Below are positions 24,559 through 43,196 of a DNA stretch of 64,000 bases, piece after piece; the first letter of the stretch is position 1; every line of letters begins with the position of its first letter. Under the pieces are notes generated by a model. The model worked only from the letters and a program-made list of their open reading frames with translations, was not told where the DNA came from and ran no database searches. The DNA comes from an uncultured Alphaproteobacteria bacterium. GTDB taxonomy: Bacteria > Pseudomonadota > Alphaproteobacteria > HIMB59. Position numbers and translations under genes: made by a program. The stretch lies in assembly GCA_902613845.1 (NCBI GenBank), contig CACMIW010000004.1, positions 1 to 64,000 of the forward strand. Direction: 5' to 3'.

Positions 24559-24781
24559 AATAATCCTCCTTCCTCATTAAGAATTTCCTCAGCCACTTTC
24601 CTAACATGACTATAAAAACAAAACTTACAAAACCGAAAAATGCTGGGAAGCCATATATCTCGGCAAAGGAAAAGTATTCATGTCTGTGAAAAGTAAAGTC
24701 TAAAAGAATTAAAAGTGCTCCGATTATAAGAATGTACTTTGTAAAGCTTTTACCCATGCTCTTTAAATCATTATTTTTCAT
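24548..24781 (-). CDS. Small two-helix membrane protein in the Mrp cluster
   Basis: A 77-residue protein I do not recognise. It has two clear transmembrane segments (YILIIGALLILLDFTF and FPAFFGFVSFVFIVMLG) and a basic C-terminus. It sits between two ND-like antiporter subunits, directly after one stop and overlapping the next gene by 11 bases. That placement makes it a probable accessory subunit or assembly factor of the antiporter. The function is inferred from position only. Confidence 0.7.
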   Translation of the reverse strand: MKNNDLKSMGKSFTKYILIIGALLILLDFTFHRHEYFSFAEIYGFPAFFGFVSFVFIVMLGKWLRKFLMRKEDYYDQ

Positions 24782-27726: not shown

Positions 27727-28089
27727 TTATTTATCTGACTTTAGCTCCAAGGACTCTATTTCTTTTTCTTCAATTGTTTCGTAGTTCTTGTAAATTTGTA
27801 ATACTAAAGCCAATCCAAGCGCTGAAGTAGCCACTCCAACGACAATAGCGGTCAGTATTAAGACGTGTGGCAATGGATTTGAATAGGCATTTGCCATTTT
27901 TGTTAATATAGGGGCGGTTCCATCTAAAACTTTTGCGAGTGATACAAAAAATACAAAAACTGCAGTTTGAAAAATTGCTAAGCCAACTACTTTTTTTAAA
28001 TAGTTTTGACTTGTGATGATTATAAATAATCCACCAACCATAAGTAAAATAAAGGCAAAATGGTTCCAAAAATAAATAAAATTACTCAT
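27727..28089 (-). CDS. mrpC: Mrp-type antiporter subunit C (NuoK-like)
   Basis: A three-helix subunit related to NuoK. Landmarks are GGLFIIITSQNYLKKVVGLAIFQTAVFVFF and the conserved DPLPHVLILTAIVVG-type segment, here NPLPHVLILTAIVVGVATSALGLAL. I placed the start at the ATG at 28089, which overlaps the mrpB stop by 8 bases; an upstream in-frame ATG at 28128 would add 13 residues and lengthen the overlap. About 120 residues, ending in a charged Glu/Lys-rich tail. Confidence 0.88.
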   Translation of the reverse strand: MSNFIYFWNHFAFILLMVGGLFIIITSQNYLKKVVGLAIFQTAVFVFFVSLAKVLDGTAPILTKMANAYSNPLPHVLILTAIVVGVATSALGLALVLQIYKNYETIEEKEIESLELKSDK

Positions 28090-28519
28090 TAATTTCCCCA
28101 AAGGAAGCAAAGGAGTGATACAAAGCAATCATTACAGTTGCAACTGTGATGCCTACTCCTAACTCAACTAATATAATACCAATATGTTGACCAGTTGATG
28201 GGTCTGATGACAAAACATTGTAATCTAAATACATCCCATCAAGAAATATTGAAACTATTCCGACACCTGCATATAACAAAACACCTACGCACATTAAATA
28301 TCGATTGATCATTATTGGAACTAAAGTTTCTCCTTTTGAAAGCCCAAATATCATTGAATACAATATAAATGCCGCCGCTACTATTACCCCAGCCTGAAAT
28401 CCACCTCCTGGACCATAGTCACCATGAAATTGAACGTAAAGCCCAAATATAATAATCGGTGCAAAAAGAATTTTACTTACAACGCTTAATACAGGACTTG
28501 ATGAAATTTTATCTCTCAT
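28082..28519 (-). CDS. mrpB: Mrp-type antiporter subunit B
   Basis: A 145-residue, four-helix protein of the MnhB/MrpB family. The signature GLYVQFHGDYGPGGGFQAGVIVAAAFIL is near the N-terminus, matching the HGHxSPGGGFQGG-type motif of the family, and LVELGVGITVATVMIALY is near the end. It starts within the end of the preceding gene (4-base overlap), supporting a single polycistron. Confidence 0.9.
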   Translation of the reverse strand: MRDKISSSPVLSVVSKILFAPIIIFGLYVQFHGDYGPGGGFQAGVIVAAAFILYSMIFGLSKGETLVPIMINRYLMCVGVLLYAGVGIVSIFLDGMYLDYNVLSSDPSTGQHIGIILVELGVGITVATVMIALYHSFASFGEINE

Positions 28520-29079
28520 TTTTTTTTATTTTTTTTAAAATTAGTTTTACGATTAAGAGTGTTGCTAGTTAATAAAGCAATGACACCTAAGCCTGCAGTA
28601 AATATTACTATTGTTTCTCCCAAAGTATCAAAACCCCTATAACTTGCTAAAATATTAGTAACAACATTAGGTATATGAAAAAAATCTTTACTTTCCTTTA
28701 AGTACTCTGGAACTACATGAAGATGTATTGGTGCATTAGGATCTCCTAACAAAGGGAGATTGGCAATTATAATAATCAATATTAGTGATATCGCTACTGC
28801 TAGAATAATACTTGGAAATAAATTTATTAATTTGTTTTTTTTTCCTTCTGGTAATTTTGCAGCAGCCATAACCATTAAAATTGTTGATATACCAGATCCA
28901 ACGGCAGCTTCAGTAAATGCTACATCAACCGCATCTAAATTCACATATATAGCTGAGCATAACAAAGTAAAAGCCCCTGTGAGTGCAACAACACTTATAA
29001 GTGACGTGGTTTTAAAAATAAAAAAGGTTGTCACCAATAAAAGGGAAATTAAGAAAAAATTAATTAATAAAAAATTCAT
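28516..29079 (-). CDS. Stand-alone MrpA C-terminal domain (MbhD/MbhE-like, DUF4040)
   Basis: A 187-residue membrane protein that matches only the C-terminal part of MrpA. The first half (LTGAFTLLCSAIYVNLDAVDVAFTEAAVGSG) is the DUF4040/MbhD domain with the conserved Asp/Glu pattern, and the second half (NVVTNILASYRGFDTLGET) is MbhE-like. In canonical Mrp these are fused to a large NuoL-like region; here that region is missing. It therefore corresponds to the split MbhD+MbhE of archaeal membrane-bound hydrogenases. Confidence 0.82.
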   Translation of the reverse strand: MNFLLINFFLISLLLVTTFFIFKTTSLISVVALTGAFTLLCSAIYVNLDAVDVAFTEAAVGSGISTILMVMAAAKLPEGKKNKLINLFPSIILAVAISLILIIIIANLPLLGDPNAPIHLHVVPEYLKESKDFFHIPNVVTNILASYRGFDTLGETIVIFTAGLGVIALLTSNTLNRKTNFKKNKKK

Positions 29080-29390
29080 TTCTTATTTTTTCCCCTTGGT
29101 TTATACCCTGACTCATGAGCAAATAGAGCTATTGCATGACCAGTTACAGGGCTAGTGAATATTAAAAATAATGGTATTAATAAAAGTTTAAGGCTTAATA
29201 AACTGAAACCTGAATAAATTATTAAAGCTAGGACTATAAAACCCGATCCTAGTGTATCAATTAGACCAGCAGCATGAATTCGACTAAATACATCGGGTAA
29301 CTTTATTAAGCCCAGACTCCCAGATAAAATGAAGAAGCAGCCAATTGCTAATAAGACTAGAGAAATCAACTCAATATAATTATACGACAT
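29076..29390 (-). CDS. mrpG: Mrp-type antiporter subunit G
   Basis: A 104-residue, three-helix subunit. The family motif GSLGLIKLPDVFSRIHAAGLIDTLGSGFI is intact, as is the following conserved FTSPVTGHAIALFAHESG segment. Its start overlaps the end of mrpF by 11 bases. Confidence 0.93.
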   Translation of the reverse strand: MSYNYIELISLVLLAIGCFFILSGSLGLIKLPDVFSRIHAAGLIDTLGSGFIVLALIIYSGFSLLSLKLLLIPLFLIFTSPVTGHAIALFAHESGYKPRGKNKK

Positions 29391-29649
29391 TGCTTTTTTT
29401 TCTTTTTATTTTGTAATACCTAAGTATTGCTATGGTGCCTAAAAAATTCAAAAGGATGTACATCAAAGAAATATCTACAAAATCAGGTCTATCGAATGCA
29501 AAACCATGAACACTGATACCTATGGCTATAATAGTCCCAATACTTGATATAGATAATATTCTGTCAAAAGGGGTTGGTCCTTTGATTGCTCGGACTAAAC
29601 ATAATGCTACAGAGACCCCCAGAACAATTAATGTTGCAAAAAAAATCAT
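29380..29649 (-). CDS. mrpF: Mrp-type antiporter subunit F
   Basis: An 89-residue, three-helix subunit with the conserved stretch LVRAIKGPTPFDRILSISSIGT followed by DFVDISLMYILLNFLGTIA, as in MrpF/MnhF. Overlaps mrpE by 4 bases and mrpG by 11. Confidence 0.93.
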   Translation of the reverse strand: MIFFATLIVLGVSVALCLVRAIKGPTPFDRILSISSIGTIIAIGISVHGFAFDRPDFVDISLMYILLNFLGTIAILRYYKIKRKKSNVV

Positions 29650-30140
29650 TTATCTAAATCCGTAATTACTTTGTTCATATCATCTGTTTGCAAGTCTTCG
29701 GATAGCTTCTTACTTAATGCGTGAACCAGAAATGTTTTTTTATCTATTTCTATTGTTACTGTACCCGGTGTAAGAGTTATAGCGTTTGCATAGTTTGCGA
29801 TACCTGTTCTATTATTCTGGGATGCTTTGACACTTATAAGTTGAGGAGAGTATTTACCATTCCAAATTAAAGCTGTTGTTGTTACTCCAGATTTAAAAAT
29901 TTCTTTAAATAACCAAATCCAGTAAAATGGTAATCTAAGAATAATTTTTAAAGGAAGAGAGTCTTCCTCGAGAGCTTTAGCTCTATAAGACATCCAAAAA
30001 ACAAAAAGAACACTGACTAGTCCAAAAAAAAGTAAAAGCGATTTAAGGTAACCAGATAAAATAAACCAAAATACAAAAAGTATTACGAAATAAGTTATAA
30101 ACGATAAGGTCTTAAGTGAATCTTTATTAAGTTTAGCCAC
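29646..30140 (-). CDS. mrpE: Mrp-type antiporter subunit E
   Basis: A 164-residue protein with two or three N-terminal membrane helices and a cytoplasmic domain. Diagnostic features are a WLFKEIFKSG motif and NAITLTPGTVTIEID near residue 120, typical of MrpE. It is the first gene of the antiporter operon, so the order is E-F-G-A(C)-B-C-D and then two more ND-like subunits. Nine bases separate it from the upstream formyl-THF-related gene, so the cluster may be co-transcribed with that operon. Confidence 0.92.
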   Translation of the reverse strand: MAKLNKDSLKTLSFITYFVILFVFWFILSGYLKSLLLFFGLVSVLFVFWMSYRAKALEEDSLPLKIILRLPFYWIWLFKEIFKSGVTTTALIWNGKYSPQLISVKASQNNRTGIANYANAITLTPGTVTIEIDKKTFLVHALSKKLSEDLQTDDMNKVITDLDK

Positions 30141-30149
30141 TAAAAGCTA

Positions 30150-31067
30150 TTATGAGAATAAATCACCCTCTGTAAATACTGCAGTATTCATGTCTTTGAC
30201 AAATAATTTACCTTGGTCTGATTTAAATCTTGATACCTCAATAAATCCGCCTTTAACTGCGATTCTGACGTTTTCAGCATTAATTGATATGATTTGACCT
30301 GGAAAATGCTCAGCACTTTGCTCATCAATGAACTTAGTGTCATAAAAGACATATTCATCCCCCATGAATTCAGCCCATGCACCAGGCTGAGGGTTACAAC
30401 CTCTTATTAAGTTATAAATTTCGTTTCCAGGTTTTTTCCAATCAATTCTTGCATCACTTTTTTTACACCAAGACTCATATGTTGCTTTAGAGTCATCTTG
30501 AGGTGTCTTTGGTGCATTACCAGACTCAATTAAATTTGCAGCTTCAACACAAGCTTCGAGACCTAATGGAAATATCTTTTTAAAATAAACATCTCCTAAA
30601 GTATCATCAGGACCAATATCAACTTCTTTTTGAAGTAATATTTCACCCTCATCCAGCCCATCATTTGGATAAAAAATTGAAAGACCTGTTTTTGTGGAGC
30701 CACCAATTATAGGCCAGTTTATTGAACTTGGTCCTCTATGGAGTGGAAGTAGTGAGGGGTGAAAACAAATAGATCCATGAGTAGGGATATCTCTTGCTCC
30801 TTCAGGCACAAAAATTATTACATAAGCCATGACACATAAATCTGCACCATGAGACTTAATTTGGTCTAGTACCTCTTGGTCTTTGAAATTTGAGGGTTGG
30901 TAAACAGGCAAATTTACACTTTGAGCGTATTCTTTAACAGGATCGACTGGTTTACCCTCTTTGTCAGGTGCACAATATACCGCTACTACTTCATGGTCTG
31001 TTTCTGTATGAAATTTTTCTAAAGCACTTTTTCCAAATGCCTGTTGCCCCATTAAAATTATTTTCAT
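30150..31067 (-). CDS. 10-formyltetrahydrofolate hydrolase-like formyltransferase, stand-alone
   Basis: A 305-residue formyltransferase-fold protein. The core HPSLLPLHRGPSSINW (His as catalytic base) and the DGLDEGEILLQKEVDIGPDD segment with the catalytic Asp match the hydrolase domain of 10-formyl-THF dehydrogenase (ALDH1L1) better than Fmt; the usual Asn of the N-H-D triad is Phe. The C-terminal domain (from about 205) is Fmt_C-like, and there is no fused aldehyde dehydrogenase. It is the last enzyme gene of a cluster with a formyl-CoA transferase and a ThDP lyase, so it may move a formyl group between folate and another acceptor, or release formate. Confidence 0.75.
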   Translation of the reverse strand: MKIILMGQQAFGKSALEKFHTETDHEVVAVYCAPDKEGKPVDPVKEYAQSVNLPVYQPSNFKDQEVLDQIKSHGADLCVMAYVIIFVPEGARDIPTHGSICFHPSLLPLHRGPSSINWPIIGGSTKTGLSIFYPNDGLDEGEILLQKEVDIGPDDTLGDVYFKKIFPLGLEACVEAANLIESGNAPKTPQDDSKATYESWCKKSDARIDWKKPGNEIYNLIRGCNPQPGAWAEFMGDEYVFYDTKFIDEQSAEHFPGQIISINAENVRIAVKGGFIEVSRFKSDQGKLFVKDMNTAVFTEGDLFS

Positions 31068-31093
31068 TATTGCTCCTTAAATTAAAATATATC

Positions 31094-32341
31094 TTATACT
31101 GCTCCGGCCTCTCTTACAGCTTTAATTTCATCGTCACTCATCTGACAAAATTCTTTTAATATCTCATCAGTATGCTCTCCGAGAAGTGGAGATCTTTCAA
31201 CTTTTGCTGGGGAGTCAGATAACTTTATTGGATTACCAACAGTCAAATATTTCCCTCGTTCAGGGTGATCGACTTCGACTATAGTATTAGTGTCTCTCAG
31301 GCCTTGATCTTCAGCTAATTCTTTTAGTGATAATATTGGACCAACTGGTATATCTAAAGGGTTACATATATCCATAACCTCAAATTTAGTCTTGGTCATT
31401 GTCCATGACTCAATTGTATCAAATATTTCGTTTAACCTTGGTAGTCTTTTAGCAGGAGTTGAGTAATTTTCATCCTCTTTCCATTCGGGTTTACCAATAA
31501 CATCACATACTTTTTCCCAAACAGCCGCCTGGGTAATAAAATATGTATATGCATTAGGATCCTTTTCCCAACCTTTACATTTTAGAATTCTTCCTGGCTG
31601 ACCACCACCTGAGTCGTTACCTGCGCGAGGAGTAGAGTCACCAAAAGGAATGTCTTCTCCAAATTGAGAGTATTCTTTTAAAGGCCCTCTTGAAAGTCTC
31701 TGTTGGTCACGAAGTTTAACTCTGCAAAGATTTAAAACTCCATCTTGCATTGCGGCAGATACTCTTTGTCCCTTTCCTGACTTTTCTCTATGGAATAAAG
31801 CAGTAACTATACCCAATGCTAAGTGTAGTCCTGTTCCACTATCTCCTATTTGTGCACCGGTGACTAAAGGAACTTCTCCAAGCATACCTGTAGTTGAAGC
31901 AGATCCACCTGCGCACTGAGCAACATTCTCATAAACTTTACAATCTTCATATTTGCCAGGACCAAAACCTTTAACAGACGCATAAATCATTCTTGGATTT
32001 ATTTCTTGAATTTTTTCCCATGAAAAGCCCATTCTATCTAAAGCACCAGGAGCAAAATTTTCTACCATGACATCACACTCTTGGATTAACTTAGTAAATA
32101 TTTTTGAACCCTCTGGTTTCTTTGGGTTTAATGTTATGCTTCTTTTATTTGAGTTTAGCATTGTAAAGTACAAACTGTCTGCATCAGGAACGTCTCTTAG
32201 CTGACCTCTTGTAGCATCACCCACTCCTGGTCTTTCAACTTTTACAACATCTGCACCAAACCAAGCTAGTAATTGTGTGCAAGTTGGTCCGGACTGGACG
32301 TGTGTCATATCTAATATTTTGACACCTTTTAAAGCTTCCAT
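31094..32341 (-). CDS. frc: Formyl-CoA:oxalate CoA-transferase-like (YfdW/Frc family)
   Basis: A 415-residue class III CoA-transferase. Similarity to E. coli YfdW and Oxalobacter Frc is obvious throughout: THVQSGP with Q16, [25 protein letters not shown], the catalytic Asp D167 in [10 protein letters not shown], and [19 protein letters not shown]. Position 47 is Gln, as in YfdW, where Oxalobacter Frc has Trp48. The active-site glycine loop reads SGGGQ instead of GGGGQ. The family moves CoA from formyl-CoA to oxalate. A strong GGAGGAAA site precedes the ATG. A related carboxylate (such as a 2-hydroxy acid) is an alternative acceptor. Confidence 0.85.
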
Positions 32342-32357
32342 AGTTTCCTCCTAAAGT

Positions 32358-34034
32358 TTATTTGTACATAGTCTGGTTTTTTGTACCAGGAGCAAATTCT
32401 TCTTTATCCACCCAAATATTTACGATTGCAGGTATACCTGACTTTACGGCTTCTCTAGCTCTTTGAAGGGCAGGTTGGATTTCTTTTGCTTCTCTAACAG
32501 CTTCGCCATGACCACCAAAGATTTTTGCAAACTCATCAAAGTTAACATCACCCAAGATGTTTCCAACATTTCCTTTATCTTCACCATACTTCATAATTTG
32601 ACCAAATCTGATCTGGTTTTGAGCAGAGTTATTACCAATAACTGTTAAAACAGGTGCTTTGTGTCTGACAAAAGCCTCGAAGTCCATTCCGGTCATAGAA
32701 AAAGCACCATCACCACAATATAAAAGAATTTCTTTTTCAGGTGCAGCTAATTTGGCTGCAAGTGCGTAGGGTACTCCGACACCTAAAGTTCCAAGGGGCC
32801 CTGGGTCCATCCAAGCACCAGGCATTCTAGGTTGAACTGCTTGAGCACTAATGGTTACAACGTCTCCACCATCACCTATGTATATAGTATCATCATTTAA
32901 AAACTGGTTGAGTTCCCATGCTACTCTATAAGGACTAATAGGAGATTTATCTGTTGTAAATGTAGGCATCAATTTTTCTAAAGCTGCCTCTTCTCCAGAT
33001 CGAAGTTCATTAAACCAATCTGATCGATCTTTTTTTGTTCCTGCTTCAGAGATAGCCTTTAGAGTTGTTCCTATATGTCCAACTAAACCAAGTGATATAT
33101 CTCTATTTTTTCCAACAGTTCTATAGTCCATATCAATTTGAATAACAGTTGCGTTAGGATTTAATCTTTTACCGTAACCCATTCTAAAATCAAAAGGTGT
33201 TCCAACAATTATAATACAATCTGACTTGGTAAAAGCATTTCTTCTTGTTCTGTGAAAGTGATGTGGGTCTCCAGGAGGCATTGAACCTCTTGCAGCACCA
33301 TTTAAATAAGCAGGGATATTCATATTTTTAACAAAGTCGATTGCATCTTTCGTAGATTGGCAAGTCCAAACCTGTTGACCTAAAAGTATGCATGGTCTCT
33401 CTGCATTTGAAATTATGTCTGCAGCTTTTTGTACATCTACTGGGTCTGCTAATGTTTTTGATGAAGCACTATATTTTCCAGCTTCTGGTAAGACGGCTTT
33501 GCTCATTGGAATTGAAGAGTCAAGTATGTCTCTTGGAATTTCTAAAAATGATGGACCAAAAGATCCATTTCTAGTTTCCCTAAAAGCCATTGATACCATG
33601 TCTGCACATCTCTCGGTTGACATTACAGTTGCTGCAAATTTTGTAATTGGTTGCATCATGTCTACGTGAGGTAAATCTTGTAAAGATCCCATTTTATGTT
33701 GTGTGAGTGAACTTTGTCCTCCTATTAAAAGCATTGGGATTTCAGCTCTAAAAGCATTTGCTACTCCTGTTAATGCATGTGTCGTGCCTGGTCCAGCAGT
33801 AACAACTGCACACCCAGGTTTACCTGTCATTCTTGCATAACCATCAGCTGCATGAGAGGCAACTTCTTCATGACGTACGTCAATAATTTTAATTCCTTCG
33901 TTTAGACATCCATTGTAAATATCAATAATGTGTCCCCCACATAAAGTGTAAATAACCTCAACTCCCTCTGCTTTAAGGGCTTTAGCAACCAGCTCCCCGC
34001 CAGTTATCATTTGTTCGTTAGATCCTGTAGACAT
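32358..34034 (-). CDS. ThDP-dependent lyase/decarboxylase (2-hydroxyacyl-CoA lyase or oxalyl-CoA decarboxylase type)
   Basis: A 558-residue three-domain ThDP enzyme. The catalytic Glu lies in RHEEVASHAADGYARMTGKPG, and the ThDP/Mg motif is GDGAFSMTGMDFEAF ... GNN near residues 445-470. The central segment FDFRMGYGKRL resembles the ILVBL/HACL2 branch, not oxalyl-CoA decarboxylases, whose equivalent is GARLNWL. No small regulatory subunit (ilvN-like) is nearby, arguing against acetolactate synthase. Placed upstream of a formyl-CoA transferase gene it probably cleaves a CoA thioester to formyl-CoA plus CO2 or an aldehyde. A palindromic operator overlaps its likely promoter. Confidence 0.75.
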   Translation of the reverse strand: MSTGSNEQMITGGELVAKALKAEGVEVIYTLCGGHIIDIYNGCLNEGIKIIDVRHEEVASHAADGYARMTGKPGCAVVTAGPGTTHALTGVANAFRAEIPMLLIGGQSSLTQHKMGSLQDLPHVDMMQPITKFAATVMSTERCADMVSMAFRETRNGSFGPSFLEIPRDILDSSIPMSKAVLPEAGKYSASSKTLADPVDVQKAADIISNAERPCILLGQQVWTCQSTKDAIDFVKNMNIPAYLNGAARGSMPPGDPHHFHRTRRNAFTKSDCIIIVGTPFDFRMGYGKRLNPNATVIQIDMDYRTVGKNRDISLGLVGHIGTTLKAISEAGTKKDRSDWFNELRSGEEAALEKLMPTFTTDKSPISPYRVAWELNQFLNDDTIYIGDGGDVVTISAQAVQPRMPGAWMDPGPLGTLGVGVPYALAAKLAAPEKEILLYCGDGAFSMTGMDFEAFVRHKAPVLTVIGNNSAQNQIRFGQIMKYGEDKGNVGNILGDVNFDEFAKIFGGHGEAVREAKEIQPALQRAREAVKSGIPAIVNIWVDKEEFAPGTKNQTMYK

Positions 34035-34051
34035 TTTTAACCTCTCCCTGG

Positions 34052-34068
34052 TGGTATAATGTATACCA
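34052..34068 (-). promoter_or_regulatory. Palindromic operator, probable GntR site, upstream of the ThDP enzyme gene
   Basis: A perfect 7-base inverted repeat, TGGTATA-ATG-TATACCA, lies 18 bases upstream of the ThDP enzyme ATG and 30 bases after the gntR stop. It has the GT...AC core typical of FadR/FCD-type GntR operators. On the minus strand a candidate -10 (TATACA) falls inside it, 15 bases after TTGCAA. A near-identical site lies upstream of tctC at 37984-38000. Confidence 0.7.
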
Positions 34069-34097
34069 GATTTAGAGGTCTTGCAAAGAATTTTGCC

Positions 34098-34757
34098 TTA
34101 TGAATTAATGCTTTCTTGTATCTTATCAACTAAAGTAAGTGCGTGATTTTTAAGAAGTTTTTCTGCTTTTGATCCCTGGCCTGCGACAAGAGATCTAACA
34201 ATGTCATTGTGTTCATCAATTGATTTCACAGCTCTATGTGACTCTATTACAAATTTTTTCCTCAAGTATTGTAAATGAATTAACTGTGACTCTAAAATTT
34301 CTCCCATTAATTTTACTTTAGTTAATTTCATAATTTGATTATGAAATTTAATATTATCATTTGAGTAGTTATCAAGTTCAGACAAAACGTTCTCTTTTGA
34401 GTAATGACAATACTTATTTAAACTTTCAATCTCATCTTTAGTTGAATTAGCAATAATTAAATGAGCTGCATAACCCTCTAGACCTGCCCATACAGTTACA
34501 ATATCAATCAATTCTTTTTTTGATTTTCTGTGCACAAATACGCCTCTTCTTGGAACTGTTTTAACAATTCCCTCTTGCTCTAATTTAGCAACAGCTTCTC
34601 GAATAGGTGTCCTACTAACTCCTAGCTTTTCAGATAATTGCCTCTCATCTAGATGAAAATCACTTTGTTTTAAATATATATTAAGTGACAAAATATATTT
34701 TTTTAGTGAATCGTATACCTTACCTTTTAGGTTTACCGGTCCTATTTTTTGGATCAT
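34098..34757 (-). CDS. GntR-family (FadR/FCD subfamily) transcriptional regulator
   Basis: A 219-residue regulator. The N-terminal winged helix-turn-helix includes DERQLSEKLGVSRTPIREAVAKLEQEGIV and PRRGVFV. The C-terminal all-helical FCD domain (about 90-215) contains His/Asp residues that usually bind a metal and a carboxylate ligand. It starts directly after the tctA stop, so it is co-transcribed with the transporter, and it precedes the frc/ThDP genes. It most likely represses both units through the two palindromes and is released by the transported acid or its metabolite. Confidence 0.88.
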   Translation of the reverse strand: MIQKIGPVNLKGKVYDSLKKYILSLNIYLKQSDFHLDERQLSEKLGVSRTPIREAVAKLEQEGIVKTVPRRGVFVHRKSKKELIDIVTVWAGLEGYAAHLIIANSTKDEIESLNKYCHYSKENVLSELDNYSNDNIKFHNQIMKLTKVKLMGEILESQLIHLQYLRKKFVIESHRAVKSIDEHNDIVRSLVAGQGSKAEKLLKNHALTLVDKIQESINS

Positions 34758-36281
34758 TTATGTAGTCTGTGCTTTTTTAAAAAATTTTCTGTAGAGAGGG
34801 CCAAATGCTGGCATAATTAAAAGCACAATTGCAATATACATTATGATTGCAGCAATAGGTTTTTCTGCCATATCAAAAAATATTCCCATACTACCATCAG
34901 ATAAAATTAGAGACTGTCTTAAAGCTTTTTCAGCTAATGGACCAAGAACAATAGATAAAACAGCTGGTGCCACAGGGTAATCTAATTTTCTCAAAATATA
35001 TCCGGCAAAACCGAATAGCAACATTAACCATACGTCGTGAAGGCTTTGTGTAGGTGCATAGCCGCCTGTTACACAAAGAACGAAAATAACCGGAGCCAAG
35101 ATGGCGAATGGTATCCGTAATACCATTAAAAAAGCTGGAATTAACGCAATATTTAAAACCAGTGTAAAGAAGTTAGCAATGTAAAGACTACCAATTAAGC
35201 CCCAAACAAACTCGGGTTCTTGAGTGAATAAAAGAGGACCTGGTGTAAGTCCCCATAAAATCATGCCACCAAGTAAAATAGCAGTCGTAGGTGATCCTGG
35301 AATACCTAATGTTAACATAGGGAGCATACTTCCTGTACTAGCAGAATTATTTGCACATTCCGGAGCAACAACTCCAGCAGGAACGCCTGAACCAAATTCT
35401 TTTGAATTTTTTGATAATTGTTTTGTAATTCCATATGACATAAGTGATGCCGGTGTGGCACCTGCCGCAGGGAGAATTCCTACAAAGAAACCTAGAAAAG
35501 AACCAATGTTCATTGCCATTATAGTTTTTTTAAGAGCGCCAAATGCTCTTCCAACTTCCTTCATGTTGACTGATAATTTTGACATTTGAACTTTACCTTT
35601 TGTTTCTTCAAGGGTCCAAAGCATTTCGCCAATTCCGTAAATTCCGATAGCAAGTACAAGGAAATTAATTCCATGAAGAAATCCAGGGATATTAAAGAAA
35701 ATTAATCTTGGCTTTCCTGTAATTAAATCTAAACCTATAGTTGATAAAGCTAATCCAATTAATATAGAAAAAATAGTTTTTGGAACGTCATCTCCACCTA
35801 AGCCTACAAATGTTGCAAATGCCATTACCATTAATGCAAAGGTTTCAGGTGCATTAAATCTTAGTGCTACCTCAGCCAGAGGTGGTGCAAATAGAGTAAA
35901 TAAAATAACAGATACAGTACCACCAACGAAAGAACCGACTGCTGCTGCAGTTAAAGCTGTCATAGCTTCTCCCTTAACAGCTAAAGGTCTTCCATCAAAA
36001 ACTGTAGCTACTGCAGTAGAAGCTCCAGGTATGCCTAACATAACGGAACTTATGGCACCTCCATACATAGCGCCATAATAGACAGCTGCTAAAAATATTA
36101 TTGCTGCAGTGGGTGGTATAATAAATGTAATTGGAATAAGTATTGCAACACCATTAACTGAACCAAGACCAGGCATTGCACCCACAAATAAACCAATTAG
36201 ACAGCCAAATATTAAAAGACCAAGGTTTAAGGGTTGAAAGGATACAAAAATTCCCTCTAAAAGAAGTATAAATACATCCAT
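34758..36281 (-). CDS. tctA: Tripartite tricarboxylate transporter large membrane subunit
   Basis: A 507-residue protein with about 12 hydrophobic segments and the TctA family motifs. PGLGSVNGVAILIPITF is near residue 40, followed by AVYYGAMYGGAISSVMLGIPGA, and a second PGSPTTAILLGGMI motif near residue 330 shows the inverted repeat structure. It forms the transport channel of a TTT system together with TctB and the binding protein TctC, all adjacent. The substrate is some carboxylate; the neighbouring enzymes suggest oxalate or a small hydroxy acid. Confidence 0.9.
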   Translation of the reverse strand: MDVFILLLEGIFVSFQPLNLGLLIFGCLIGLFVGAMPGLGSVNGVAILIPITFIIPPTAAIIFLAAVYYGAMYGGAISSVMLGIPGASTAVATVFDGRPLAVKGEAMTALTAAAVGSFVGGTVSVILFTLFAPPLAEVALRFNAPETFALMVMAFATFVGLGGDDVPKTIFSILIGLALSTIGLDLITGKPRLIFFNIPGFLHGINFLVLAIGIYGIGEMLWTLEETKGKVQMSKLSVNMKEVGRAFGALKKTIMAMNIGSFLGFFVGILPAAGATPASLMSYGITKQLSKNSKEFGSGVPAGVVAPECANNSASTGSMLPMLTLGIPGSPTTAILLGGMILWGLTPGPLLFTQEPEFVWGLIGSLYIANFFTLVLNIALIPAFLMVLRIPFAILAPVIFVLCVTGGYAPTQSLHDVWLMLLFGFAGYILRKLDYPVAPAVLSIVLGPLAEKALRQSLILSDGSMGIFFDMAEKPIAAIIMYIAIVLLIMPAFGPLYRKFFKKAQTT

Positions 36282-36309
36282 CTTTTATGCCTTTACTTTA
36301 CCAATCTCA

Positions 36310-36834
36310 TTATGAATACATAAAATCGTATACTGGATAAAATAAGGGCTCTGAAATACCTTGAGGTAAAGGTATTTTTAAAAGCCATTCAAAAAATAAA
36401 AAGGTTAAAACTGGTGTGATTAAAGAGAATACAGATATAAATAGGATACTTTTAGAACTAAAATATCTAAGATAAAAAGCTAAAAAAAAGATAAGTGAAA
36501 AGTAAATTCCTAAATAGCCTATTGCTAAAACTAAAATAACTAATGAAATAATTGTTACTGCAATATATTTGAATGCTTCAGCATCAATAAAAGGTGAGTC
36601 ATCTTTAGATTGTGGTGACCTTTTTAGAACAAATTTTATTATGGTAAGGACAGTACAAATAAACATGCCAAGAGAAAGGTAGAAAGGAAGAAATCCCGCA
36701 CCCATGTTTTCTTCTGCGTTCCATGTAATTCTATTCTCAGCACTTTTAATCATCAGAGCGATTGAGCATAACGCTAAAATAACCGCCACTACAATTTCTG
36801 CTCTTTTGACAGTTATTTTGTTTGTTATGCTCAT
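36310..36834 (-). CDS. tctB: Tripartite tricarboxylate transporter small membrane subunit
   Basis: A 174-residue protein with four or five hydrophobic helices and the TctB-like GAGFLPFYLSLGMFICT segment. The sequence is poorly conserved in this family, so position between tctC and tctA is the main support. Contains a charged hydrophilic loop (KRSPQSKDDSPFID) between helices two and three. Confidence 0.85.
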   Translation of the reverse strand: MSITNKITVKRAEIVVAVILALCSIALMIKSAENRITWNAEENMGAGFLPFYLSLGMFICTVLTIIKFVLKRSPQSKDDSPFIDAEAFKYIAVTIISLVILVLAIGYLGIYFSLIFFLAFYLRYFSSKSILFISVFSLITPVLTFLFFEWLLKIPLPQGISEPLFYPVYDFMYS

Positions 36835-36853
36835 ATCACTCTTAATTTAAATA

Positions 36854-37831
36854 TTAGTTAAAGTTTTTAATGATCTCACCGTGCTTAGCATATTCAATTG
36901 CTAAGAAATCTTTAAGACCAAAACCCTCTAACCAGCTCATTAACTTTCCATCGTCGATATTGAAAGTTTGGAACTCGTCATCATGATAAACAGTGTGAAG
37001 AAGTCCTGTGTAGTACTTCTCTACCTCTGCATCAATACCAGCTGGAGCCATAAATGCTCTCATCATGTAGTATTCAAGATCAGGATAACCTAATTCATAT
37101 GAAGATGGTACTTCAGGGAATGCAGGATTTCTCTCAGGAGTCATCATAACTAATGCTTTTGAATCACCTGATTGATAGAAACCCATTTGCTCTGAAGGGT
37201 TGTTTAATGTGAAGTCAGACTCGCCACCAACAAGTCCCTTTGCAACAGCACCACCGCCGCTGTATGGAACATACTTAGCGTCAAATCCAAATTGACCTCT
37301 CATCATACCAAGAAGTAATTCGTCCTCAGACATACTTCCTGTACCACCCATCACTAGACCATTTCCTCTTGCGAGGTCGATGAAATCATCAAAAGTTTCA
37401 ACACCAGCAGTGTTCTTACCCTCTGTTGCAATCCAAACTAAGAATGTATCAGTGATAAGTCTTGCTAAAGGTGTGAAATCATTGAAAAAGTCGATACCTA
37501 ATTCTGGTTGGTTAACTGGTGTTGTAAGAACGTTGTTAAGAGTGATGATTAGTGTGTGCTCATCACCAGCTTTTTTCTTAACATAAGTCATAGCCTCACC
37601 ACCTGATCCACCAGCTTTGTTAATTGGAATCACAGGCTTAGACGCATAGTCATTCTTTTCAATAACACCTTGAACTAATCTAGCAATTTCGTCAGCTCCA
37701 CCACCTTGACCAGCTGGGATAATAAGTTCTACTGGCTTCTTTGGACTAAAAGGCTTCGCAGAAGACACTGAACTAACAGCGACAAGTGAAAGTGAAACAA
37801 TAACTAATGCTAATTTTTTGATTATTGACAT
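36854..37831 (-). CDS. tctC: Tripartite tricarboxylate transporter substrate-binding protein
   Basis: A 325-residue periplasmic protein of the Bug/TctC family. A signal peptide covers about residues 1-25 (ending SSVSSA-KPF). PVELIIPAGQGGGADEIARL near residue 40 is the family motif for carboxylate binding, and GGSGGEAMTYVKKKAGD and PYSGGGAVAKGLVGGE follow. Base composition is more GC-rich than its neighbours, usual for highly expressed binding proteins. AGGAGGAAAC precedes the ATG. It opens the tctC-B-A-gntR operon, controlled by the palindrome at 37984-38000. Confidence 0.9.
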   Translation of the reverse strand: MSIIKKLALVIVSLSLVAVSSVSSAKPFSPKKPVELIIPAGQGGGADEIARLVQGVIEKNDYASKPVIPINKAGGSGGEAMTYVKKKAGDEHTLIITLNNVLTTPVNQPELGIDFFNDFTPLARLITDTFLVWIATEGKNTAGVETFDDFIDLARGNGLVMGGTGSMSEDELLLGMMRGQFGFDAKYVPYSGGGAVAKGLVGGESDFTLNNPSEQMGFYQSGDSKALVMMTPERNPAFPEVPSSYELGYPDLEYYMMRAFMAPAGIDAEVEKYYTGLLHTVYHDDEFQTFNIDDGKLMSWLEGFGLKDFLAIEYAKHGEIIKNFN

Positions 37832-37983
37832 ATTGTTTCCTCCTATAGGTTAAGCAGTACAATAAACTATTTAATAGAATATTAAAAATATATTCTTAAT
37901 TTAGGATTTAGTTTAAAATTAGAAAAAAACCTTGTTTTAGTATTGATTTTCTTGACATTTACAACAGTGATTGTGTTATTTAA

Positions 37984-38000
37984 TTGTATAATGTATACAA
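37984..38000 (-). promoter_or_regulatory. Palindromic operator, probable GntR site, upstream of tctC
   Basis: A perfect inverted repeat, TTGTATA-ATG-TATACAA, in the tctC/quinone-oxidoreductase divergent gap. It shares 13 central bases with the site at 34052-34068, including the same asymmetric ATG spacer, and again contains a candidate minus-strand -10 (TATACA) 15 bases after a TTAACT hexamer. The tctC ATG is 153 bases away, giving a long leader. It could also affect the plus-strand gene. Confidence 0.7.
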
Positions 38001-38019
38001 AATACCACAGGCAGTTAAA

Positions 38020-38994
38020 TTGAAGTTTATAAATTATAAAGATGGAAGTTTGTATCTAGACGAAAAAGAGATCGCTGACCCTCTTGATGAACAAATCCAA
38101 ATTGAAATTCATTTCGCTGGAATAAACAGAGCAGATATTCTCCAAAAAAACGGACATTACCCACCTCCCTCAGGTGAGAGTGAAATTATTGGATTAGAGT
38201 GTTCCGGAATAGTTACCAAATTAGGAAAGTCTGTAAAAAACTTTAGTTCAGGAGACCAAGTTTGTGCAATTCTTGGAGGCGGTGGATATGCTGAGTACGT
38301 AAACGTTAATGAAAAACAAGTAATGCCATTACCAAAAAATTTAAATTTACATCAGGCTGGCTGCTTACCAGAAACCACACTCACTGTTTTTGAGAATATT
38401 TTCAATGTATCTAAATTTCAAAGAGGTGAGGCGATTTTGATACATGGTGGAAGCAGTGGTATCGGCACAACTGCTATTTCAATTCTTAAAAATTATACAA
38501 AAAATATTTTTGTAACCGCTGGTACGAGTGGGAAATGTAAGAGTTGTATCGAATTAGGAGCCACTGATGCTATTAACTACAAAGATACAGATTTTGAAGA
38601 ATATTTTAATGAGAAAAAATTAAAGGTTGATGTAATATTAGATATGGTTGGAGGAGATTACTTAAAAAAAAATTTAAAAATATTAAATTTTAAAGGAAGA
38701 CTTACTTATATTGCTGCCCTCGGTGGGATTAAAGCAGAAACTAATCTTTTACACATAATGAATAAACAATTAAAAATATCTGGATCAACATTAAGATCAA
38801 GATCTCCATCTGAAAAAGGAAATATTGTTGATCAGGTTGTCAAAGAAATATGGCCTTTGATAGAGAATGATAAATATAAACCAACGATTTTTGAAACTTT
38901 TAATATGAGTGATGTAAATAAAGCACATGAGGTTATGGAAAAATCTGACCACATAGGAAAAATAGTTTTGAGCATAAAAGGAGAAAAAAAATGA
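38020..38994 (+). CDS. NAD(P)H:quinone oxidoreductase, zinc-free MDR family (PIG3-like)
   Basis: A medium-chain dehydrogenase/reductase without zinc ligands, about 324 residues. [21 protein letters not shown] is the PIG3-type quinone oxidoreductase signature, and the Rossmann motif is [13 protein letters not shown] near residue 145. I placed the start at TTG 38020 (then [10 protein letters not shown], with an AGG-rich site upstream). An in-frame TTG at 37984 would start inside the palindromic operator. Its stop overlaps the sucC ATG as ATGA, so it leads an operon with sucCD. Confidence 0.82.
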
Positions 38995-40178
38995 ATCTGC
39001 ACGAATACCAAGCAAAAATATTATTAAAAAATAATAACGTTAGAGTTTTAAATGGCTACCCAGTATTAGATGATAGCGATATAGAAACTGCTGTAGACTC
39101 TATCCAAACGCCCGTTATGGTTGTGAAGTCTCAAATTCATGCAGGTGGAAGAGGCGCGGGAAAATTTACAGATAGTGGTGATGACAAGGGTGGTGTTAGA
39201 GTTTGCTTCTCAAAAGATGAAGCCAAAGACAATGCAAAAAAAATGTTTGGTAAAACTTTAGTTACAAAACAAACTGGTCCAAGTGGAAAACAGGTAAATA
39301 GACTTTATATTGAGGAAGGATGTGATATCAAAAAAGAGTACTATCTAAGTATGCTCGTGGATAGAGCCTCATCTTCAATTTCAATTATAGCCTCTACTGA
39401 GGGTGGTATGGAAATTGAGGAGGTAGCAGAAAAGCAACCTGAAAAAATTATTACTGTTAATGTCCCTGGGGACAGTATTATTGACCAAAATAGTTTAAAT
39501 AAATTAACTGAAGGTCTAAAGATAGATCAAAACCTATCAAATGATTTTTGTGATCAAATTCAAAAAATTTACAATAGCTTTTTGTCTTCAGATGCCTCTT
39601 TGGTAGAAGTTAATCCTTTTGTATTAACTGGTGAGGGTAATTTTTTGGCTTTAGATGCGAAGGTATCGATAGATGATAATGCGCTTTATAAACATAAAGA
39701 TGTAGCTTCAATGAGAGATGAAACTGAAGAGGACCCTGCAGAAATTGAGGCTTCAAAACATGAACTTAACTATGTCAAATTAGATGGTCAAATTGGATGC
39801 ATGGTAAATGGAGCTGGTCTTGCAATGGGTACAATGGATATAATAAAATTACATGGTGGCAGTCCTGCAAATTTTCTAGACGTAGGAGGGGGAGCTACAA
39901 AAGAGAGAGTGGCAAAAGCTTTCTCTATAATTCTGCAAGATCCAAATGTAAAAGCTATTTTGGTAAATATTTTTGGTGGCATTATGAAATGTGACATTAT
40001 CGCTGAGGGAGTGGTAGCTGCAGCTAAAGAGCTATCTATTCAAGTTCCATTGGTAGTAAGATTAGAAGGAACCAATGTTGACCTTGGAAAAGAAATTTTA
40101 AACAAATCTGGGCTGTCAATTATTTCGGCAGATAATTTAGAAGATGCAGCTCAAAAGGCAGTTAAGGCTTTAAACTAA
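38991..40178 (+). CDS. sucC: Succinyl-CoA synthetase (ADP-forming) beta subunit
   Basis: A 395-residue ATP-grasp subunit of the TCA-cycle enzyme that makes ATP from succinyl-CoA. [12 protein letters not shown] at the start, [16 protein letters not shown] in the ATP-grasp region, [10 protein letters not shown] and the C-terminal [16 protein letters not shown] are all family landmarks. It is translationally coupled to the upstream quinone oxidoreductase gene through a 4-base overlap and followed by sucD after 10 bases with an AGGAGAAA site. Confidence 0.96.
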
Positions 40179-40188
40179 AGGAGAAATT

Positions 40189-41061
40189 ATGTCAGTATTA
40201 ATTAATAAAAACACAAAAGTTATTTGTCAGGGTTTTACTGGTTCTCAAGGCACATTTCACTCTGAACAAGCTATAAAATATGGAACTCAAATGGTTGGTG
40301 GGGTGACACCAAAGAAAGGTGGCCAAGAGCATTTAGGACTTCCTGTGTTTAATAGTGTTAAAGAGGCAAAAGACAACACAGATGCAAATGCAACTGTAAT
40401 ATACGTTCCACCACCTTTTGCAGCTAGTGCTATAATTGAAGCGATTGATGCAGACATGGAACTAATTGTTTGTATAACTGAAGGAGTTCCAGTTCTTGAT
40501 ATGATGCAAGTAAAAAGAAAATTAGAAAAATCAAAATCGCGTTTAATTGGACCCAACTGCCCTGGAATAATTACACCTGATGAATGCAAAATAGGCATTA
40601 TGCCAGGTCATATTCACCAAAAAGGAAAAATAGGAGTTGTTAGTAGATCTGGCACACTAACATATGAAGCAGTAGCACAAACTTCTGCTGTAGGTCTGGG
40701 TCAATCGACTTGTATTGGTATTGGGGGTGATCCTATTAATGGAACAAACTTTATAGATTGCCTTGATCTTTTTTTAAAAGACCCCGAAACTGAAGGTATC
40801 ATAATGATTGGAGAGATTGGTGGAACTGCTGAAGAGGAAGCTGCAGAATTTATTAAAAAATCTGAAATAAAAAAACCAGTTGCTTCTTTTATAGCTGGTG
40901 CCAGTGCTCCTGCAGGAAAAAGAATGGGTCATGCAGGTGCTATTATTTCTGGTGGAAAAGGCACAGCAGAGTCAAAGTTTAGTGCTTTAGAAGAAGCTGG
41001 AGTTCACATATCCAAATCACCAGCAAAGCTAGGTGAGACAATCAAAGAAGCTTTAAACTAA
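40189..41061 (+). CDS. sucD: Succinyl-CoA synthetase alpha subunit
   Basis: A 290-residue CoA-binding alpha subunit. [19 protein letters not shown] begins the CoA-binding Rossmann domain, [10 protein letters not shown] is in the middle, and the phosphorylated His is in [11 protein letters not shown] near residue 247. With sucC it forms the whole enzyme. Its stop overlaps the convergent reductase gene by 4 bases. Confidence 0.97.
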
Positions 41062-42035
41062 TATAATTTAGCTTCTTTAGCTCTCAGTTTGGTTAAAGCA
41101 AGAACTGTATCAATTGTAGGTGTAGGAACATTTGTAATTTTTCCAAGCTCTTGAACAGAGGTGATTAAAGCATCAATCTCCATAGGTCTATCGCGTTCTA
41201 AATCTTGGAGCATAGATGTTTTATGTTCGCCAACTGCTTTAGCTGCATCAATTCTTCTCTCAACATCGAAAGGCTTATCTATTCCTAAATTTTGAGAAAT
41301 TGCATGAGCTTCATTCATCATATTTTTTATGACGGCTCTGACTTCGTCGTTACTACAAATTTTGACTAGTGTAGATGTTGTAAGTGCACTAATAGGATTA
41401 AGAGAAAGATTACCAAAAAGTTTTAACCAGATATCACCTTTTATATTAGGTCTAATAGGTGCTTGAAAGCCTGCTTTCTCTAAAGTTTCAGAAAGATTTT
41501 TAATTCTATCTGTTTCCTCTCCATTTATTTCTCCTAGTTGAAACTTATCTCCCTCTAAGTGCTGAATAACGCCTGGTTTGATAACTTCTGATGCGGGATT
41601 AACTATACAGCCGATGATTTTTTCAGGGCCAATTCGATCCCATTGACTTCCATCTGGATCAACTGAAGTAACTTTTTTATCTTTGAAATCAGGATTAGTG
41701 TGATTGTAGAAATACCACCATGGGATACCATTCACACCCCAAACAAATGAAGTATCATCTTTCATAAGAACTTCAAATGCATCAAGACAACCCGGAACTG
41801 AATGAGCTTTTAGAGTCACAAAAATATAATCTTGCTTTCCAGCTTTTTCCGCTGTGTCTACACACTTTGGATATACAACTAGTTCTTTGCCATCTTTTCT
41901 TAATCTCAGTCCATCTTGTTTGATAGCCTGATAATGAGGTCCTCTAGCAATCAAAGTTACATCTGCACCTATCTCAGTAAGTTTTGCTCCCAGATAACCA
42001 CCAATAGCTCCTGCACCGTAAATACAAATTTTCAT
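41058..42035 (-). CDS. Ketopantoate reductase-like (PanE/ApbA family) oxidoreductase
   Basis: A 325-residue NADPH-binding protein. [23 protein letters not shown] is the PanE/ApbA dinucleotide motif, and a catalytic Lys is expected in the [21 protein letters not shown] segment, where the family consensus places it. Its ATG follows the aminotransferase stop with no gap, so the pair works together. That context (rather than panB/panC) suggests reduction of a 2-oxo acid made by the transaminase; true pantothenate synthesis is the alternative. Confidence 0.8.
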
Positions 42036-43196
42036 TTAAGCTTTTAAATGTTTGATGGCAGCAGCAACTCCACTTCCAAGTTCAAATTTTATTCCCACAT
42101 CGTACATGGCTAATTCTGCAGTAGAGATTGCACCTAAAATCATAGTGCTATTTAAATCTCCAAGATGGCCTATTCTAAACAATTTTCCAGCTACTTTATT
42201 AAGCCCTCCTCCAAATGAGGTGTTATACTTGTTGTATGCTGTTTTAACTACATCAGTAGAGTCAATTCCCTCTGGCACCATTATTGCTGTAACAGTATTT
42301 GAATAAAGCAAGGGATCCTTTGCACAAAGTTTAAGACCCCATGCACTAGATGCTTTTTGAACAGCTTGTGCAAAAAATTTATGACGTGAATAAATATTAT
42401 CAATTCCCTCTTCCATCATCATATTAAGCGCCTCTCTAAGTCCTCTTAGAAGTGGCATTGGATTAGTATAAGGCCAATAGCCTGTATCATTTATTTTAAG
42501 CATATCATGATAATCATAGTAAGCTCTGGGTAAGTTAGATGTTTTTGCAATTTCTAAAGCCTTTTGGCTTACACAAGATATAGCTAAACCAGCAGGTAAC
42601 ATAAATCCTTTTTGAGAGCCTGAAACTGCAACATCAACCCCCCATGCATCCATTTCAAATTTGATTGAACCTATTGAGCTTACGCCATCAACAAATAGTA
42701 AGGCAGGATGATTAAGATTATTTAAAAGGTCTCTTGTTGCTTTAACATCATTTGTAACCCCTGTGGAGGTTTCATTGTGAGTTACAAGAACTGCTTTAAT
42801 ATTATGATCTTTATCCTCTGATAATATTTTTTCAAATTCGTCATGAGGCGTCCCGGAACCCCACTCTAAATCAACTTCCTCAACTTCAATGTGTAGTTTT
42901 TTACACATTTCTATCCAAAGGTGTGAAAAATGTCCAAATCTAGCTGATAAAACTTTATCTCCCTTACTTAATAAATTTGTAAGTGCTGCTTCCCATCCAC
43001 TTGAACCTGTACCAGGGAATATAATTGGTTGTGCAGATGTTGTCTCAAAAACTTTTTTTAAATCGTTTATTAGTGGGTGCCAAAATTTATCCATACCGGG
43101 TGCACGATGGTCTTCGTTTGAAATATCCATCGCCTGTCTTACCCTATCTGGCATGTTTGTAGGTCCTGGTACGAAAAGTGAAATTTTACCTGGCAT
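42036..43196 (-). CDS. Class V aminotransferase, serine/alanine-glyoxylate type
   Basis: A 386-residue PLP enzyme. FVDGVSSIGSIKFEMDAWGVDVAVSGSQKGFMLPAGLA holds the PLP Asp, the specificity strand and the Schiff-base Lys, as in serine-glyoxylate aminotransferase. FVPGPTNMPDRVRQAM at the start is typical. It would link serine and glyoxylate to glycine and hydroxypyruvate, next to GlyA in metabolism. Neighbouring PanE-like reductase could act on the oxo-acid product. Alanine- or aspartate-glyoxylate use cannot be separated by eye. Confidence 0.85.
   Translation of the reverse strand: MPGKISLFVPGPTNMPDRVRQAMDISNEDHRAPGMDKFWHPLINDLKKVFETTSAQPIIFPGTGSSGWEAALTNLLSKGDKVLSARFGHFSHLWIEMCKKLHIEVEEVDLEWGSGTPHDEFEKILSEDKDHNIKAVLVTHNETSTGVTNDVKATRDLLNNLNHPALLFVDGVSSIGSIKFEMDAWGVDVAVSGSQKGFMLPAGLAISCVSQKALEIAKTSNLPRAYYDYHDMLKINDTGYWPYTNPMPLLRGLREALNMMMEEGIDNIYSRHKFFAQAVQKASSAWGLKLCAKDPLLYSNTVTAIMVPEGIDSTDVVKTAYNKYNTSFGGGLNKVAGKLFRIGHLGDLNSTMILGAISTAELAMYDVGIKFELGSGVAAAIKHLKA

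Follow-up and report, generated by a model that had tools for sequence, protein, structure and literature searches.

Degradation of oxalate by formyl-coenzyme A (CoA):oxalate CoA-transferase (Frc) and oxalyl-CoA decarboxylase (Oxc) is textbook knowledge, and the genes oxc and frc are the usual markers of CoA-type oxalate use. A survey of 2026 names two oxalate routes, decarboxylation and the reduction of oxalyl-CoA, and makes no mention of tetrahydrofolate (THF; PMC12927642). The DNA considered below, which stretch we call the window, comprises the first 64 kb of contig CACMIW010000004.1 from an uncultured alphaproteobacterium of the HIMB59 lineage, and carries seven same-strand genes that we consider to be probably an oxalate module, in which a thiamine diphosphate (ThDP)-dependent enzyme from the branch of the 2-hydroxyacyl-CoA lyases (HACL) and IlvG would have displaced Oxc. 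The seven genes, with the matches on which the assignments rest, are the following:

30150..31067, minus strand: FMT, a stand-alone formyltransferase of the 10-formyl-THF dehydrogenase N-domain type, 305 amino acids (Pfam, NCBIfam, and PDB sequence matches)
31094..32341, minus strand: Frc, formyl-CoA:oxalate CoA-transferase, 415 amino acids (TIGR03253, PDB match to YfdW, active-site columns)
32358..34034, minus strand: ThDP enzyme of the HACL/IlvG branch, 558 amino acids (NCBIfam, PDB matches, genome-scale comparison)
34098..34757, minus strand: transcriptional regulator of the GntR/FCD type, 219 amino acids (Pfam GntR and FCD)
34758..36281, minus strand: TctA, the large membrane subunit of a tripartite tricarboxylate-type transporter (PF01970, 480 bits)
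36310..36834, minus strand: TctB, the small membrane subunit (PF07331)
36854..37831, minus strand: TctC, the periplasmic receptor (PF03401)

The open reading frames were confirmed at 30150-37831 with the transcription order tctC-tctB-tctA-gntR-ThDP-frc-FMT, and the matches in Pfam, NCBIfam, and the PDB bore out the families that a sequence-only reading had assigned to them; TctA, TctB, and TctC, the three components of a tripartite tricarboxylate transporter, were all recognized by Pfam. That reading had joined the genes into a chain of carboxylate import, CoA transfer, cleavage by the ThDP enzyme, and formyl handling on folate, of which proposal the conserved unit with its own regulator stands, whereas the activities are still predicted ones.

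The Frc of the window, a class III CoA-transferase, scored 694 bits against TIGR03253, for a cut-off of 504, and its best PDB match was the YfdW of Escherichia coli. Asp169, Gln17, Gln48, Tyr139, and the glycine loop—active-site positions checked against the E. coli YfdW—are kept in all 33 rows of an alignment in which 25 sequences came from operons with the window's type of ThDP enzyme and 8 from Oxc operons. Only three of the 21 columns tested at or near the active site differ from YfdW (15, Gly to His; 104, His to Arg; 246, Gly to Ser), and do so alike in both operon types; 20 of those 21 columns are invariant, column 72 being the one that varies, as are 203 columns of the alignment overall. 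No column was found in which the residues of the 25 and the 8 rows are disjoint, which result is the expectation if Frc makes oxalyl-CoA in both types of operon.

The distribution of the two ThDP types was examined in 385 genomes of the alphaproteobacterial class, drawn evenly from a larger group and searched for four genes, with Frc and Oxc accepted over their cut-offs, the window-type ThDP enzyme at E ≤ 1e-150, and FMT at E ≤ 1e-60. Frc was found in 35 genomes, the window-type ThDP enzyme in 16, Oxc in 19, and FMT in 34. Frc accompanied the window-type enzyme in 15 of the 16 genomes (G231 being the exception) and Oxc in 18 of the 19 (all except G287), the two ThDP types occurred together in 0 of the 385, and exactly one of the two was present in 33 of the 35 Frc genomes, with neither in G398 nor in G470, the latter 79% complete. 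Under random dealing among the 35 Frc genomes the probability of no overlap is 4e-8, a figure that ignores relatedness, so that the count of families—11 for the one type and 10 for the other, with none in common—is the fairer guide. The window-type gene lay within 0.2 kb of frc in 14 of 15 genomes and 5 kb away in G387; and Oxc over its cut-off occurred in none of the 52 genomes of the window's genus.

The same exchange was seen locus by locus. A single scan of named genomes with peptide patterns from the window's FMT, which procedure favors close relatives, gave 70 FMT loci: 40 close ones (FMT 81-100% identical), treated as the window's group on identity rather than taxonomy, and 30 distant ones (48-65%) from Kiloniellaceae, Rhodobacteraceae/Paracoccaceae, Hyphomicrobiales, and unplaced genomes. 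The ThDP slot of the distant loci held a window-type gene in 18 (61-68% identical), an Oxc-like gene in 8, and no ThDP gene within reach in 4. The Oxc-like genes are only 25-27% identical to the window's enzyme, and the three that were scanned all passed TIGR03254, at 964-1015 bits. On trees of 37 rows each, the type changes twice for Frc and three times for FMT, of which changes the well supported branches force at least one and at least two, respectively; more than one exchange is therefore supported on the FMT tree, and a single one would be compatible with the Frc tree.

The ThDP enzyme itself has three domains and lies below the cut-off of every one of the 25 NCBIfam models listed out of 51. 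The highest score, 487 bits, went to PRK05858 'acetolactate synthase' (NF004516; cut-off 587), a match that would favor an IlvG-type acetolactate synthase (ALS) with no link to CoA thioesters; the mycobacterial IlvG is the protein P66947. That same P66947 stands among the putative HACLs in one account (PMC13327070), the gene holds a fixed place beside frc, and a second ThDP gene elsewhere in the genome, a 590-residue open frame, would fit the biosynthetic ALS. With the cut-off not reached and that separate gene present, we rejected an ALS function, to which we leave very little probability.

An alternative of more weight is that the enzyme is a 2-hydroxyacyl-CoA lyase and that the acid activated by Frc is glycolate, lactate, or a different hydroxyacid, from which an aldehyde and formyl-CoA would then be produced. 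In the lyase AcHACL the acid/base is described as Glu493, held by Gln41, and in human HACL2 as Glu557, one turn later, whereas Oxc is described as having no such acid/base and as binding the oxalyl moiety through Tyr120, Tyr483, and Ser553, with Glu121 (PMC8760513, PMC13327070); human HACL2 is reported to carry an isoleucine at the Glu493 position and yet to be a lyase, the HACLs being said to differ in mechanism (PMC13327070). We mapped these positions, by way of the AcHACL alignment, onto 23 window-type sequences, among which 7 are nearly identical to the window's. In all 23, Ile475 stands at the Glu493 position, Gly478 three residues further on (at that of Glu557 in HACL2), and Cys32 at the Gln41 position; residues 470-479 include no acid in any of the 23, nor do residues 470-483 in an alignment of 18 rows. 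The Gln128 of AcHACL is matched by Q119 in 23 of 23, which glutamine is common to ALS too and hence a weak criterion. The HACL2-like character put forward by the sequence-only reading is weakened by the lack of an acid at both positions, although HACL2 shares the isoleucine at the first of them. Because human HACL2 has the same residue, Ile475 is not decisive against a lyase; nonetheless, the missing acid, the cysteine in place of Gln41, the interchange with Oxc while no Frc column separates the two types, and the fact that none of the seven genes encodes an aldehyde dehydrogenase (one such gene is 11 kb off, at 18056-19546) all tell against a hydroxyacid module, which we regard as unlikely even with HACLs as the best PDB matches and the glutamine at Q119. 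Accordingly, oxalate is the clear favorite, by virtue of the oxalate type of Frc, with no column setting it apart from the Frc of Oxc operons, and of the mutual replacement of the ThDP enzyme and Oxc; glycolate and other 2-hydroxyacids, which had been offered beside it, are the less likely substrates.

Several observations weigh against a decarboxylase of oxalyl-CoA. The enzyme scores 248 bits against the Oxc model TIGR03254, for a cut-off of 739, and its nearest solved relatives are lyases, an actinobacterial 2-hydroxyacyl-CoA lyase heading the PDB matches; the actinobacterial HACL model NF058623 gives 352 bits for a cut-off of 600. Oxc residues Y120, E121, and Y483 are replaced by L118, Q119, and I475 in 23 of 23 sequences, while the alignment is not confident in the C-terminal region that holds the fourth, S553. 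In the genome sample, moreover, the co-occurrence figures take no account of relatedness and scoring was limited to the 3-4 top candidates of each genome, so that a second copy could be missed. The enzyme, as far as its sequence goes, is thus without both kinds of signature, that of HACL and that of Oxc, and we weighed the evidence of the swap above that of the residues. One of the 8 Oxc rows has a glycine at the Glu56 column. A C-terminal motif, APGTKxQTMY, is kept in all 23 sequences apart from x (L135, in the alignment of 18 rows, has Gln for Lys) and may form a lid; the predicted structure is poor at the active site, with residues 471-478 and 548-558 below a pLDDT of 50.

The sequence-only reading had made co-conservation across genomes the point on which its proposal would fall, and the cluster came through: Frc adjoins FMT in all 40 close and all 30 distant loci, with gaps of at most 407 bases except in L045 (671 bases, the Frc match being in pieces). 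The close loci include that of alpha proteobacterium HIMB59 (L043), whose FMT is 89% identical. Within the order, the window-type ThDP gene (E ≤ 1e-80) was present in 41 of 162 genomes, all 41 of them among the 52 of the window's genus, and in every one of the 10 genomes of that genus with a completeness of at least 90%. TctA was found in 19 of the 30 distant loci, several of which loci are incomplete.

The claim of shared operators was likewise borne out. The palindrome GTATANNNTATAC occurs exactly twice in the 64 kb, for an expectation of 0.10 and with 0 shuffles reaching 2:

34054..34066, no strand: 13-base palindrome GTATAATGTATAC, operator-like, in front of the ThDP gene
37986..37998, no strand: second copy of the 13-base palindrome, between tctC and a divergent gene of the PIG3 type

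All 6 of the close loci checked retain both sites, the one before the ThDP gene and the one before tctC. Farther afield, 0 of 17 loci had the complete palindrome before the ThDP or oxc gene and 0 of 4 before tctC, although GTATAC precedes tctC in 4 of 4 of the distant loci checked there.

FMT consists of Formyl_trans_N and Formyl_trans_C only (Pfam), and therefore has neither the carrier and aldehyde dehydrogenase domains fused in 10-formyl-THF dehydrogenase (FDH) nor the C-terminal enoyl-CoA hydratase domain of HypX. Its best PDB sequence relatives are the hydrolase domains of FDH, which also made up the first five Foldseek matches by E-value for its predicted structure (pLDDT 89.6), several Fmt chains exceeding them in TM-score; the triad H103/S105/D139 is invariant in 22 of 22 sequences. 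That FMT is simply the methionyl-tRNA formyltransferase (Fmt) of its genome was rejected as the sole account, with 159 bits against TIGR00460 (cut-off 201.5) and a second formyltransferase-like copy, 28% identical, in the genome. In a tree of 58 rows, read without the row of that own Fmt (L002_ownFmt), the window's FMT belongs to a clade of 38 rows (support 100/99), all linked to frc or fhs, the latter being the gene of formate-THF ligase; 14 unlinked and 5 linked copies fall outside. Ten neighbors from 6 of the 14 unlinked loci had no function in common; three such loci from one family (L122, L123, L126) share a layout, and in L139 the unlinked relative stands between genes resembling acyl-CoA dehydrogenase and caprolactamase/acetophenone carboxylase (8994-11078 and 6664-7893).

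The domain of FDH is described as taking the formyl group of 10-formyl-THF and passing it, by means of His106/Ser108/Asp142, to the 4'-phosphopantetheine on its carrier, and HypX as proposed to pass it from THF to CoA, direct proof of which was then lacking (PMC6802093); the carrier step is supported by a further study (PMC8748788). Since FMT is a lone domain of this type beside two enzymes that would handle formyl-CoA, and CoA bears the same phosphopantetheine thiol, we read it as a formyl-CoA/THF formyltransferase, and, should the module indeed serve oxalate, hold with moderate confidence that it exchanges formyl between CoA and THF.

Two other roles for FMT remain to be weighed. A plain hydrolysis of 10-formyl-THF to formate and THF, which function the sequence-only reading had named alongside that of a transferase, would agree with the closeness to the FDH hydrolase domain, with the lack of a PurU over its cut-off in the genome, and with the fact that fhs is not adjacent in the window's own group; nevertheless, in 28 of the 30 distant loci (all except L067 and L082) the gene after FMT is fhs, and there a hydrolase and a ligase would make a futile, ATP-burning pair, and the natural acceptor of the parent domain is a thiol (PMC6802093, PMC8748788). 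We therefore rate hydrolysis as rather improbable and less likely than formyl exchange with CoA. A little more probable, if still doubtful as the main role, is priming, in effect one net direction of the exchanger, in which formate, ATP, and THF would yield 10-formyl-THF, and transfer to CoA the first formyl-CoA. In E. coli the priming role is attributed to YfdE (PMC3720670), of which no homolog over the cut-off occurs in any of the 35 Frc genomes; the adjacency of fhs in 28 of 30 distant loci and the direction from THF to CoA in the HypX precedent (PMC6802093) also agree with priming. Formyl transfer to a thioester should, however, be uphill on general grounds, and 7 Frc genomes have neither FMT nor a YfdE over the cut-off, 3 of these having a relative below it. 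FMT as a simple stand-in for YfdE was not a clean solution, for a second class III CoA-transferase (31-32% identical to Frc) lies in the clusters of L136 and L137, and relatives of YfdE below the cut-off occur in 16 of 35 Frc genomes.

On the opposite side of the balance from the formyl exchange stand the following points. The sub-cut-off relatives of YfdE in those 16 genomes may still prime. None of the tests run gave a CoA site on FMT. The ligase gene is beside FMT in 0 of the 40 close loci, although fhs lies elsewhere in 42 of the 52 genomes of the genus. FMT is also optional: in the sample of 385, 28 of 34 FMT genomes have Frc, leaving 6 without it, and 7 of 35 Frc genomes have no FMT. The two genes are adjacent in 18 of the 34 (in G337 FMT is beside a fragment at a contig end) and apart in 10, 9 of these with the genes on different contigs, some near contig ends, and G280 with 58 kb between them. 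These counts make FMT an accessory of Frc rather than an obligatory partner. Nor is the formyl-folate enzyme peculiar to the window's kind of cluster, as had been thought, inasmuch as FMT occurs in Oxc operons too, mostly beside formate-THF ligase except in the window's own group. A gene resembling the universal stress family was also seen 3' of FMT or fhs in 8 of the 30 distant loci (L054, L056, L060, L061, L065, L067, L069, L083).

The sequence of reactions that we infer for the oxalate module is as follows. TctCBA is predicted to import oxalate; Frc would use formyl-CoA as the donor of CoA to oxalate, so that oxalyl-CoA is formed and formate released; oxalyl-CoA would be split by the ThDP enzyme into formyl-CoA and CO2; and FMT may catalyze the exchange formyl-CoA + THF <-> 10-formyl-THF + CoA. 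Running toward THF, this last step would let oxalate carbon enter the folate pool and spare the ATP that activating formate costs, while running toward CoA, and with formate-THF ligase, it would supply the formyl-CoA that Frc needs in order to start. The formate could be oxidized by a formate dehydrogenase or re-activated by the ligase, both encoded elsewhere in the genome: a formate dehydrogenase alpha subunit over its cut-off and a formate-THF ligase are present outside the operon. No match to phosphoenolpyruvate (PEP) carboxylase was found there, gene absences in this genome being soft at 92% completeness, and of a full serine cycle, which was considered, only parts lie near the operon.

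Beyond tctC, the window continues with the following genes:

37984..38994, plus strand: PIG3-type quinone oxidoreductase, divergent (TIGR02824)
38991..40178, plus strand: sucC-type ligase subunit beta (profile scan)
40189..41061, plus strand: sucD-type ligase subunit alpha (profile scan)
41058..42035, minus strand: ApbA/PanE-family reductase (NF005089, 453 bits, cut-off 223)
42036..43196, minus strand: BhcA-like class V aminotransferase (NF045640, 568 bits, below the cut-off of 650)

The listed TTG start of the PIG3-type gene overlaps the operator-like palindrome, and the true start probably lies further inside the frame. SucC-like genes of several subfamilies (30-63% identical to the window's) lie close to the operon in 8 of the 30 distant loci, 7 times in divergent orientation; of the two that were scanned, that of L058 fell below the cut-off for succinyl-CoA ligase, so that another acid may be the substrate of such a ligase. 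On the other side of the operon, antiporter-type genes of the same strand (22876-30140) start 9 bases past the FMT stop, and by the smallness of that gap may be co-transcribed with the operon; the two that were scanned, MNHE (29646-30140) and Proton_antipo_M (22876-24558), are of the Mrp/Mnh Na+/H+ antiporter kind. A membrane pyrophosphatase gene lies at 50475-52598.

The reductase and the aminotransferase at 41058-43196, on the same strand, may constitute a second outlet. A PanE-family gene of Methylobacterium, panE2, is of relevance here. It is stated to encode an oxalyl-CoA reductase (PMC12686821). By homology, the window's reductase is a candidate for that activity and the BhcA-like protein a candidate glyoxylate aminotransferase, a pair that would lead from oxalyl-CoA to glyoxylate and on to glycine. 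A relative of the reductase (48-49% identical) is in the frc-FMT-fhs cluster of 2 of the 30 distant loci (L061 and L065); on two annotated plasmids its relatives are not beside frc, and in a third, unannotated record a search with the operon proteins matched ApbA only.

Taken as a whole, the operon is probably of a known kind, an oxalate operon, with two candidate new enzyme roles. In the open PMC literature, which we judged mostly by abstracts, we found no FMT in an oxalate operon and no HACL-type replacement of Oxc, nor did the matches listed there for HIMB59 or AEGEAN-169 with oxalate include either. We advance only tentatively, and with less than even confidence, the broadest form of the proposal: that a second oxalyl-CoA decarboxylase, of a different ThDP branch, replaces Oxc one-for-one across Alphaproteobacteria in company with a dedicated formyl-CoA/10-formyl-THF formyltransferase, and that a streamlined ocean clade uses oxalate as a one-carbon source. 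Because the two ThDP types are mutually exclusive, a survey based on Oxc would miss 15 of the 35 sampled Frc genomes, among them an abundant marine clade. The formyltransferase, if real, would be a direct bridge between the thioester and the folate carriers of one-carbon units, of interest to synthetic one-carbon pathways that make formyl-CoA, and would correct the annotation of FMT in CP031587 as methionyl-tRNA formyltransferase.

With AcHACL and human HACL2 the ThDP enzyme shares the fold, the glutamine of the Q128 type, formyl-CoA as the product (predicted for the window), a helix after the NN motif (predicted with low confidence), and, with HACL2, the isoleucine at the Glu493 position; it differs in lacking the acid there or three residues on, in having Cys for Gln41, and in its place beside an oxalate-type Frc. 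FMT shares the formyltransferase fold and the catalytic His and Asp with the N-domains of ALDH1L1/FDH and HypX (with FDH the Ser as well) but stands alone, without the additional domains of either. The yfdXWUVE operon of E. coli, with frc and oxc, resembles the window in the family and the main catalytic residues of its Frc and in an adjacent ThDP enzyme, whereas the window has an enzyme of the HACL/IlvG branch for Oxc, an additional FMT, the transporter TctCBA, and no second CoA-transferase gene among its seven. A further likeness is plasmid pLA6_002 of Paracoccaceae bacterium La 6, a marine isolate (CP031587, 50000-99900, L096), where the order oxc-frc-fmt-fhs-usp-tctCBA is accompanied by ppc, sucCD, glyA, a class V aminotransferase-like gene, hprA, folD, and formate dehydrogenase, and the TctC-like gene is annotated as argininosuccinate lyase; that island looks like one of oxalate assimilation through the serine cycle. 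The aminotransferase-like gene there, LA6_005553, which we label sgaA and which is annotated as the 42 kDa subunit of a soluble hydrogenase, is 56% identical to the window's, while the 'ketopantoate reductase' of La 6 is unlike the window's ApbA type (30% over 87 amino acids). The genes gntR, frc, FMT, and tctCBA are clustered in both, with sucCD and the aminotransferase nearby; on pLA6_002, however, oxc and fhs belong to the operon, and the island also includes ppc, hprA, folD, and formate dehydrogenase, whereas the genome of the window, with no match to PEP carboxylase, keeps its fhs and formate dehydrogenase elsewhere.

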